Assembly (NCBI GenBank): GCA_902810715.1
Contig: CADDYS010000002.1
Location: 1 to 64,000 of the forward strand
Direction: 5' to 3'
DNA length: 64,000 nt
From: a bacterium
GTDB taxonomy: Bacteria > Actinomycetota > Aquicultoria > Aquicultorales > Aquicultoraceae
Below, in pieces: positions 48,260 to 51,439 of this stretch. The translations under genes and the position numbers were made by a program. Under the pieces are notes generated by a model, which saw nothing but the letters and a program-made list of their open reading frames with translations, did not search any database and had not been told where the DNA came from. Each line of letters starts with the position of its first letter. The first letter of the stretch is position 1.

Positions 48260-49345
48260 TTAATTTCCTTTCGATTGTACCTTAATCGTTACCTTAAGAC
48301 AATCTTTCTCTGCTTTTACCTCGGGAGTCTCGGATAACTCCATAAAATACTTATCTGCTATAGCCCTAAAACTGTCACTAATAATTCCAGATAGCTGTCT
48401 TAAATCTTCTTGCGAGATCCGCCTTGCAAGAGGCTCAGACCTTAAAAGATCAACTTTTCTTTCTGGCTCTTTGCGCTCTTTTTGATTGCTGAGCGTATCG
48501 AGCATAGGTTTTAAAGGATCGACCCTGCCGCTCATAATCCGCTGTGTGTTTCTAACCGAGACCTTAAGCCCCAGCCTTCGCTCGGCTACGTCGGCTAAAA
48601 TAGCCGCGGATTTAGCCTGGCTTACCGACCGCCATATCTTGTAATCCTGGGATTTACTCCCGTCGTCGCTGTTCTTATCCTGCGCGCACAGATAATACAT
48701 TGTTGCTAAAATCTCAGACGGCGAACCCAGGTAAATCTCTAGGTCCTGGTGGTCGAGGTTAAATTCGAGCACCGTTCTTATGATATTATGCGGCCCTCGT
48801 ATAATTATCGGCTCACCTTTGCGATACTTTATAGTCGGATACGTGGACTGGTCTTTTCTCTCCGTTAACAACCCTGTGCTTGTTTGTACCCTGAACACGC
48901 TACCTCTGCCAGGCGTAGAAAACACAAGCTCAACATCATCTGCCACCTGCTTTATAGAGAAAAGCGCCATCCCCCTACCGTGGATTCCGTAGCGATCGGT
49001 AATGACGTTTTCCAGCTTAGATGTTACCCGGGGCTCGAATATCAATTCATGCAATTCGGCCGGGATGCCCCAGGCATCATCAATAATCGATACTTTTCGG
49101 ATAAGGTTATCTTCTTTCGTGGAGGCGATAAAAATCCTGGACGCACCCGCGTCGCGCGAGTTCCGCATCATCTCTAAGACAATATCTTCCATGGATTGGA
49201 TGTCGTGCTTGGCCTGGCGTCGCTCAGCCTCGCTTGTGTTCAGGCGGACGAAACCCTGGCCGAGGTCTTCCTCAATTTTGAGGTACTGCTCTCCGGTTAG
49301 GTTGGCTACGAAGTTTAGCAACGAACTGTTTTTGGTCTCTGACAT
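48260..49345 (-). CDS. GHKL-fold ATPase of unknown function
   Basis: 361 residues. The first half is a HATPase_c domain: N-box IVLEMMRNSRDAGASRIFI near 52-70, G1 DDAWGIP near 92, G2 GIHGRGMALFSI near 118. There is no DHp/H-box histidine, receiver or MutL-type transducer that can be recognised; the second half is charged and novel by eye, ending in a strand-rich KVTIKVQSK. Such stand-alone ATPases next to spoVS/rny may act as regulators or chaperone-like switches. Function not assigned. Confidence 0.75.
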   Translation of the reverse strand: MSETKNSSLLNFVANLTGEQYLKIEEDLGQGFVRLNTSEAERRQAKHDIQSMEDIVLEMMRNSRDAGASRIFIASTKEDNLIRKVSIIDDAWGIPAELHELIFEPRVTSKLENVITDRYGIHGRGMALFSIKQVADDVELVFSTPGRGSVFRVQTSTGLLTERKDQSTYPTIKYRKGEPIIIRGPHNIIRTVLEFNLDHQDLEIYLGSPSEILATMYYLCAQDKNSDDGSKSQDYKIWRSVSQAKSAAILADVAERRLGLKVSVRNTQRIMSGRVDPLKPMLDTLSNQKERKEPERKVDLLRSEPLARRISQEDLRQLSGIISDSFRAIADKYFMELSETPEVKAEKDCLKVTIKVQSKGN

Positions 49346-49668
49346 ATAAAACCTAGCGTAAGTACCGCATATACTGTCTATATTGTGCTGTGCAAAGGTT
49401 GTTTTGTCAATTGAAAAATACGTGGATAAATCAATTGTTTACAATATTTTCCTACTCTTAAGGGTGAAGGGAGACAGTCCATAGCTCCTAAGAAAACATT
49501 TCTTCTGCCAAAGTGTTTTCTTTCTTAAATTACCCACTTTCAGTGGGTCGGGTGCTCGCAATGGCAACTTATACGACAAATCATAGTATGGTTGACAGTG
49601 CACTAGGGACTGGAAGACGAAAAGGGCCGAGACAAGCTCGGCCCTCACATTTTTACTGTGGACTGTTG
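49346..49668. other. Intergenic region between rny and the GHKL ATPase
   Basis: Contains the rny terminator (49624-49644), a 9 bp hairpin AAGAAAACA/TGTTTTCTT (49490-49498, 49514-49522) and an AT-rich part upstream of the ATPase gene with possible promoter hexamers (TTGCAC and TATATG on the minus strand, about 49366-49393). No gene seen. Confidence 0.55.
49620..49644 (-). terminator. Intrinsic terminator of rny
   Basis: Minus strand: GGGCCGAG, loop CTTGT, CTCGGCCC then TTTT. An 8 bp GC-rich stem 25 bases after the rny stop. Confidence 0.88.
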
Positions 49669-51210
49669 TTATTTCGCGTACTCAACTGCTCTGTGCTCTC
49701 TAATCACAATAACTTTAATTTGGCCTGGATATTCAAGCTCAGCTTCGATCTGCTTTGCCACGTCGCGCGCAAGCATTGCGGCTCTGGCATCGTCGATATC
49801 ATCAGGCTTTACCATGATGCGAAGCTCACGGCCGGCCTGCATGGCATAGCATTTCTCAACGCCCTGGTAAGACTCGGCAATTGTCTCGAGCTTCTCAAGC
49901 CGCTTGACGTAGCTCTCAAGCGTCTCTCGTCTTGCACCGGGCCTTGCGCCGGATACCGCATCTGCCGCCTGAACGAGGACCGCCTCAACTGAATTCGGCT
50001 CGGTGTCGCCGTGGTGCGCCTCGATTGCGTGAACAACGCTTGCCTGCTCATGAAGTCTCTTCGCAAGCTCCGCGCCGATAACGGCATGCGGCCCCTCAAC
50101 CTCATGGTCGATGGCCTTGCCGATATCATGCAAGAGACCGGCTCTTCTTGCCAGCCTGATATCCGCGCCAAGCTCGGCCGCCATCATGCCGGCTAGATGC
50201 GCCACCTCGATGGAGTGCTGAAGCACATTCTGACCGTAGCTTGTCCGGTATTTTAATCTGCCCAGGACACGCACAAGCTCCGGATGGAGCCCGTGGATGT
50301 CGGTGTCGAATGTGGCCTGTTCACCCACCTCGCGGATATGCGCCTCTACCTCGTCGCGTGCCTTCTCATACATCTGCTCAATTCTTGCCGGATGTATGCG
50401 GCCGTCCGCAATGAGCCGCTCAAGTGCAAGCCTTGCAATCTCCCTTCTGACCGGGTCAAAGCTCGACAGTATGACCGCCTCGGGGGTGTCGTCGATGATC
50501 AGGTTGATCCCCGATAAGTTCTCAAACGCCCTGATGTTTCGGCCTTCCCTTCCGATAATCCTGCCCTTCATCTCGTCACTTGGCAGCGGGACCACAGACA
50601 CCGTGGTTTCCGCCACGTGGTCCGCCGCGCATCGCTGGATGGCAAGCGCAACAACGTTTCTTGCCCGTTTGTCGGCCTCATCCTTTGCCTTAGCCTCGAT
50701 GTCGCGAATCATCATTGCGACCTCGTGCTTAGTCTCGTCTTCAATCCTCTTCATAAGAAGCTGACGTGCTTCTCCCGCCGAGAGACCTGCAATTTGCTCA
50801 AGCAGCTTTAATTCCTTCTCATAAATCTCAGAGAGCTCGTTTTCAATTTTCGTGATTTCTCTCTCACGATCGGTAAATGCCCGCTCTTTCTTGTCCAAGT
50901 TGTTTGCCCGAGCATCAAGAGACTCTTCCTTCTGGCTTAGACGTCTCTCTACGCGCTGGATTTCATTCCGCCGGTCGCGCAAATCACGCTCTGCTTCTAA
51001 ACGCAGGGCATGAATTTCATCCTTAGCATTGATTAAAGCTTCTTTCTTTTTGGATTCTGCTTCCCTTTCTGCTTCAGAGATAATTCTTTTTGCAGCTTCT
51101 TCGGCGGAGGCAAACTTCGCTTCGGCAGTCATTTTACGTGCTACGTAACCCGCAGCTAAACCGACCGCGACTGCTGCAACAGCTACAATTACGAATACAA
51201 TCGCACTCAT
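49669..51210 (-). CDS. rny: Ribonuclease Y
   Basis: Membrane-anchored endoribonuclease that starts mRNA decay. 513 residues in the standard order: one membrane helix (1-24), long coiled coil to about 190 ([21 protein letters not shown] and on), KH domain with [21 protein letters not shown] near 215, HD domain with [10 protein letters not shown] and [12 protein letters not shown] near 330-360. GGAGG precedes ATG 51210. Preceded by its own promoter and a terminator-bearing leader. Confidence 0.97.
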
Positions 51211-51231
51211 TGTTGCCTCCTTCTTTCAAAT

Positions 51232-51254
51232 AAAAAAACCGAGCCAATGCTCGG
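51232..51254 (-). terminator. Intrinsic terminator in the rny leader
   Basis: Minus strand: CCGAGC, loop ATTG, GCTCGG then seven T. It ends only 22 bases before the rny ATG and just upstream of its ribosome site, so it can only stop transcription of rny itself (attenuation) or read-through from recX. Confidence 0.9.
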
Positions 51255-51404
51255 CAAAAATCTCTTTACTAAGGCTGATAACGGCTAGCCCGGCCGGCAA
51301 TATTCACAACAGCCGGAAGCTAACATCGTATCTCATCTTTAGTTTTGTCCAATCTATGTAAAACTAAAAGAGTCTTCTTAGTAAAGCATTTCTGCCAGTA
51401 ATCT
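51237..51404 (-). ncRNA. Candidate riboswitch-like leader of rny
   Basis: Between the promoter and the terminator, the minus-strand RNA has a closing helix CTTTACTAAG (51386-51377) / CTTAGTAAAG (51273-51264). Inside are TTTAGTTTT/AAAACTAAA, CCGGC/GCCGG with a 13-base loop, and GTTAGC/GCTAGC flanking it, a multi-branch fold. The terminator follows 9 bases after the closing helix. This is the layout of a transcription-terminating riboswitch or protein-bound attenuator; no known class was recognised. Confidence 0.6.
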
Positions 51405-51410
51405 ACATCT

Positions 51411-51439
51411 ATACTATAATTACGCCAAAATATAGTCAA
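51411..51439 (-). promoter_or_regulatory. Promoter of rny
   Basis: Minus strand TTGACT (51439-51434), 17 bases, TAGTAT (51416-51411). Predicted start near 51404, 190 bases upstream of rny. Confidence 0.7.

Follow-up and report, generated by a model that had tools for sequence, protein, structure and literature searches.

In many bacteria, mRNA decay begins with RNase Y, an enzyme whose level needs to be set tightly. To our knowledge, the control of this enzyme outside Bacillus is largely unknown. In Bacillus subtilis, RNase Y autoregulates by mRNA cleavage, cutting its own 5' UTR (PMC10303841). The same gene is thus under leader control there as at the locus described here: the B. subtilis 5' UTR, at 164 nt, is of similar length, it is transcribed from a sigma-A promoter, and RNase Y cuts AU-rich sequence within it (PMC10303841). 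A further parallel is offered by RNase E of Enterobacteria, where a decay-initiating endonuclease is likewise controlled by a structured element in its mRNA leader, the hairpin of the rne 5' UTR. The rny leader that we analysed, in a window of 64,000 nt (the whole stretch of DNA under study) from an uncultured class of the phylum Actinomycetota, is a new RNA family without an Rfam entry, of a known kind in which an RNase gene is controlled by its leader. No description of an rny attenuator was found in the open-access literature.

The features of the locus are collected in Table 1. The product of the regulated gene scored well above the 454-bit cut-off of its RNase Y model, and RNase Y was found in 88 of 100 relatives; of the 36 class genomes covered, 35 encode it. 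The promoter that had been predicted upstream of the gene was borne out and is of sigma-70 type; transcription is expected to start near 51404, upstream and not downstream of the terminator, leaving a leader of about 190 nt between promoter and rny. A promoter scoring at least 9 out of 12 lies just upstream of the 5' arm of the leader's closing helix in 28 of 29 leaders examined, and over the 29 leaders the distance from the -10 box to the start of the arm is 6-34 nt (median 14). Together, these scores and the short spacing place the 5' arm at the beginning of the transcript or close to it. The intrinsic terminator and its U run (U6) also held up, although the run is followed after 9 nt, not 12 as had been claimed, by the Shine-Dalgarno sequence. 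Using the 54 window ORFs of at least 120 aa as the background, we found that rny alone has a U-tract terminator in the 90 nt upstream of it. Between the U run and the rny start codon there are only about 21 nt, too few for another promoter to fit between terminator and gene.

Table 1. Coordinates of the rny leader and its surroundings in the window.
Feature	Position	Strand	Remarks
recX	52282-51617	minus	upstream neighbour of rny, same strand
sigma-70 promoter	51411..51439	minus	-35 TTGACT, 17 nt, -10 TAGTAT
P1a 5' arm	51388..51396	minus	GGCAGAAAU; near RNA 5' end, antiterminator strand
P1b 5' arm	51377..51386	minus	CUUUACUAAG; the 10-bp helix
P2 hairpin	51338..51368	minus	stem UUUAGUUUU/AAAACUAAA; covaries in class
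AUAGAUU	51351..51357	minus	conserved, mostly unpaired, P2 loop; putative G/A cut site for RNase Y (or RNase E/G)
variable region	51274..51337	minus	lineage-specific hairpin, sequence not conserved
P1b 3' arm	51264..51273	minus	CUUAGUAAAG
P1a 3' arm	51253..51261	minus	AUUUUUGCC; GCC 51255-51253 common to terminator
intrinsic terminator	51232..51255	minus	GCCGAGC-AUUG-GCUCGGU, then U6
Shine-Dalgarno of rny	51216..51222	minus	AAGGAGG
rny start	51210	minus	
rny (regulated gene)	49669..51210	minus	RNase Y, 513 aa; NCBIfam equivalog TIGR03319, 772 bits
second terminator	49622..49646	minus	3' of rny

Since a second terminator follows rny, the attenuator probably governs this gene alone. Directly 3' of rny lies a gene for a protein that we called by eye as GHKL-ATPase-like (49345..48260, minus), and this adjacency seems to recur in the class (relatives L014, L016 and L018). 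The data suggest that the gene order recA-recX-rny-ATPase is conserved in the class.

The predicted multibranch fold, closed by a perfect 10-bp helix (P1b), was recovered in our analysis. The leader was more stable than shuffled sequences at both lengths folded (z = -3.5 for 201 nt and -3.2 for 133 nt), and none of 200 shuffles was equally stable. Missed by the original prediction was the continuation of this helix beyond a 1x2 internal loop as a 9-bp helix, P1a, whose last three bases, GCC, also begin the terminator stem. The two structures are therefore mutually exclusive, as expected of an attenuator, and the RNA 5' end and the 3' strand of the terminator compete for the same three bases. 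Folding of the window leader up to the U tract gave P1a pairing probabilities of 0.88-0.99 and left the three shared terminator pairs at 0.01-0.12; when the leader was cut at AUAG/AUU, the same three pairs rose to 0.92-1.00. Removing everything up to AUAG, or the 5' arm alone, gave 0.89-1.00. Across 21 class leaders, the mean computed probability of the shared terminator pairs was about 0.17 intact versus about 0.93 cut, with leaders lacking the AUAGAUU motif cut at a fixed point. These computed values make read-through the predicted default of an intact leader and loss of the 5' end the OFF signal that would restore the terminator.

We assessed whether this structure is maintained in relatives, as conservation together with covariation is decisive for the element being real. 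A lack of covariation would have spoken against the predicted RNA; instead, covariation exceeded every shuffled and slid control. The class alignment comprised 25 distinct class-wide rows and 31 pairs, was fitted to the structure and included a few mis-aligned rows. In it, 90.8% of pairing cells could pair versus 80.4% after shuffling, 20 of the 31 pairs had changed on both sides (shuffled mean 8.9), and the covariation score was 0.248 versus 0.112 (0.04-0.10 in slid registers). None of 500 shuffles matched the alignment on any of these three measures, and in the P2 stem two-sided changes were seen in 8 of 9 pairs. Because of the structure-fitting and the mis-aligned rows, P1a was retested on 33 hand-delimited, gap-free sequences from several classes, where it scored 0.546 versus 0.186 (0 of 500 shuffles), with all nine pairs altered on both sides somewhere and no slid register above 0.20. 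Arms chosen by hand for their pairing bring a bias towards pairing, and this was addressed by two blind searches. In one, the terminator-side arm was matched to its best contiguous partner, which in 22 of 29 leaders proved to be the 5' arm picked by hand (combined p ~2e-16, relatedness ignored); in the other, duplexes were folded with shuffled upstream sequence as the control, and most class members gave p <= 0.05.

Compensatory changes thus maintain the secondary structure, and they extend into the bases over which the two folds compete. The shared GCC pairs with the 3' strand of the terminator in 100% of cases, and a change in terminator sequence is usually accompanied by a change in the 5' arm. 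For example, a terminator of ACCCC/GGGGU occurs with a GGUA arm (G022), an arm starting GGUU stands opposite AGCC (G019), and in a leader with AAGC/GCUU (G012) the shared bases move together.

The covariance search proposed with the original prediction was run with a model (R1) for which nine leaders from the family of the window served as input; in most of the class its top score fell immediately upstream of rny. Matches outside the family often reached E < 1e-5, while the remaining matches elsewhere were weak, with E above 0.02. A class-wide model (R2) was searched against 397 phylum genomes. Its 35 matches at E up to 0.01 all lie upstream of rny, as judged by coordinates or, in two unfamiliar genomes, by tblastn. 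One of these (G029) lies at a contig end, where the frame continues into the rny start and rny is split between contigs. In these 397 genomes, R2 was seen before no gene other than rny. The element thus occupies the 5' UTR of an RNase gene and has been conserved together with that gene, as would be expected of an autoregulatory leader of the rne/rny type. Given the covariation, the conserved upstream promoter and the placement of every R2 match before rny, a conserved cis-acting attenuator RNA dedicated to rny, as originally claimed, is strongly supported. In the window, no Rfam 15 family reached its gathering score, and no riboswitch family was among the weak matches. The best sub-threshold match, AbsR28 (RF02606; 22.5 bits against a gathering score of 50, E = 0.005), contained many non-standard pairs and was absent from the leaders of nine relatives, and we regard it as a chance match.

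Having established the competing folds, we turned to the loop of P2. Of the 26 non-redundant leaders from the class, 18 contain ATAGAT (2.7 expected, p = 6e-10) and one contains its reverse complement; in the 18 leaders with the motif, AUAGAUU has a mean unpaired probability of 0.70, against 0.35 for the leaders. It is missing in a few class members (G033 and G016, and G003, which has AUAAAUU). We rejected it as a universal signal of rny leaders, as a mostly Bacillota comparison set was not enriched (7 versus 8.4 expected). Pseudoknot pairing of the motif elsewhere was also rejected, its complement AATCTA occurring in none of the 26 class leaders. In the window's family the motif is overlapped by UACAUA (51360..51355, minus), which we take to be the recognition sequence of Bacillus EndoA/MazF. 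A MazF/EndoA site was nevertheless set aside, as UACAUA covers the motif in this family but not in most of the rest of the class, which mostly has UAUAUAGAUU. In most of the family, the 5' arm of P1 also contains a three-codon ORF, AUG-CUU-UAC-UAA (51389..51378, minus). It has no ribosome site, there is no AUG in G001, and much of the class either differs here or lacks the ORF; its conservation in the family is better explained by P1 pairing.

RNase Y favours cutting on the 3' side of G, at a GA step with U on the upstream side (PMC11780869); its preference for G has also been reported elsewhere (PMC4608709), and the cut is positioned by downstream structure (PMC11321564). AUAGAUU fits this preference, with a putative cut between G and A. 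The consensus of RNase Y is weak, and a single G/A site is therefore poor proof; moreover, the motif fits the RNase E/G consensus, RN/WUU, equally well.

We propose that the rny leader is a terminator/antiterminator attenuator for which cleavage of the nascent leader by RNase Y is the most likely trigger, resulting in negative feedback, and we give this proposal as a whole about an even chance of being correct. The RNA would begin at the sigma-70 promoter, and its first bases, GGCAGAAAU, would pair with AUUUUUGCC some 140 nt downstream, occupying the GCC with which the terminator stem begins. As long as the 5' end is intact and base-paired, the terminator could form no more than a 4-bp stub and polymerase would read through, so that the default would be ON. 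Were the 5' arm lost or held away, the GCC would join the terminator and rny would be OFF. The likeliest cause of such a loss would be an RNase Y cut at the exposed AUAG/AUU in P2 of the nascent leader, which would detach the 5' arm and cause premature termination, feeding back negatively on rny; as an alternative to detachment by the cut alone, cleavage may admit a 5' exonuclease. We infer this feedback from a gene that encodes an endonuclease that would be expected to cut a site such as AUAG/AUU, from the preferences of RNase Y and from its self-cutting in Bacillus.

Several observations weigh against triggering by RNase Y. The time available to a membrane-bound nuclease on nascent RNA would be a matter of seconds, the motif is lost or altered in the class members listed above and is not enriched in Bacillota leaders, and it would serve RNase E/G as well, an enzyme also encoded by 31 of the 36 class genomes (PF10150). 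The RNase E/G of the class is short, about 500 aa (e.g. G000:C47:1368-2171). This second enzyme raises the alternative that another nuclease is the sensor, either RNase E/G cutting at AG/AUU or RNase III acting on the roughly 20-bp P1 duplex that P1a and P1b form together, which would couple the level of RNase Y to other decay enzymes. The fit to RN/WUU and the long duplex speak for such a sensor, but three (G002, G005 and G030) of the five class genomes without a PF10150 match have both leader and motif, and the internal loop that interrupts P1 argues against RNase III; we consider this alternative distinctly unlikely. A ligand riboswitch, in which a small molecule, metal ion or nucleotide bound at P2 or the junction would strengthen or weaken P1, with a ligand tied to RNA turnover, would account for the compact junction, for AUAGAUU being conserved and unpaired, and for an expression platform of the kind usual in riboswitches. 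About 7 nt of conserved unpaired sequence is small for a ligand pocket, however, and neither the lack of Rfam riboswitch matches nor the restriction of the element to rny in the 397 genomes, never before a metabolic gene, favours this reading, which seems unlikely to us. The option of a ligand-sensing RNA in the original prediction was thus neither strengthened nor overturned by an element that precedes rny only and no metabolic gene. The other option, self-control of RNase Y analogous to but structurally unrelated to that of rne, is the better-fitting of the two, with the part played by RNase Y itself remaining putative.

The terminator might also be a fixed brake, with P1 chiefly hiding the 5' end and stabilising the mRNA without any switching. 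Pairing of the 5' end shields RNA from 5'-dependent decay, and the start of the 5' arm 6-24 nt past the -10 box in nearly all leaders, at the RNA end or close to it, would suit this role. Stability alone, however, leaves unexplained why the arm overlaps and covaries with the first bases of the terminator, as it does the conserved U tract and the placement of the promoter, and we regard a fixed brake as quite improbable. The presence of recX upstream on the same strand further raises the question of whether the hairpin belongs to recX, with rny transcribed from its own downstream start. The stretch between U run and start codon is too short for a promoter, and the promoter conserved upstream of the leader, together with the covariation of P1 with the terminator, leaves this reading a negligible chance; we rejected it on spacing and promoter.

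The overlap between 5' arm and terminator is also seen in other deep Actinomycetota lineages (G037, G038, G063, G076, G077, G099, L103, L104 and L110, the last with arms GGCUUUAGGCU/AGCCUAAAGCC). A few rny leaders of Bacillota (L119, L107 and L142) plausibly have it too. In several leaders outside the class the computed balance favours the terminator, and those of G038, G063, G099, G049 and G077, from other classes, fold to the terminator even when intact, which weighs against the proposed mechanism. A terminator-like hairpin lies upstream of many Bacillota rny genes (L105, L106, L109, L111, L112, L116, L119, L137, L141, L147, L152, L153, L160 and L168), often with a recurring stem of CCGAG...CUCGG or GACCGA...UCGGUC. 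Terminators rarely keep their sequence, which makes such a recurring stem unusual. A wider rny attenuator in Bacillota is possible. Many Bacillaceae rny leaders (L127, L131, L158, L164, L166, L169 and others) have a conserved GUACAUGCCGACA-like segment before AGCAAGAGGAGGUGA. More tentatively, and with confidence that falls short of even, we suggest a nuclease-sensing attenuator in which the transcript's own 5' end would be the antiterminator and attack on the nascent leader by the encoded enzyme would be read as a signal to terminate, in an arrangement before rny that may be ancient and common to deep Actinomycetota and some Bacillota.

The competition of three strands (GGC, GCC and GGY) provides a concrete and testable switch, which can be disrupted and then rescued with compensatory changes, and if RNase Y is the trigger, it would be a feedback loop turning cleavage of the nascent transcript into transcription termination. 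This differs from rny of B. subtilis, where control involves the 5' UTR and early ORF and occurs by mRNA cleavage and RNase J1 trimming, mostly via the ORF, and where the word "terminator" appears nowhere in the paper (PMC10303841); at the present locus, by contrast, a covarying antiterminator overlaps a terminator. It also differs from rne, where binding to the hairpin speeds mRNA decay, as the rny leader has an unrelated structure and the anatomy of transcription attenuation. In that anatomy it resembles terminating riboswitches and attenuators: P1 uses bases of the 5' strand of the terminator, the two folds are exclusive, and a U-tract terminator precedes the gene. Unlike terminating riboswitches, the rny leader has no known ligand, serves a single gene family and draws its competing strand from the very 5' end of the transcript.
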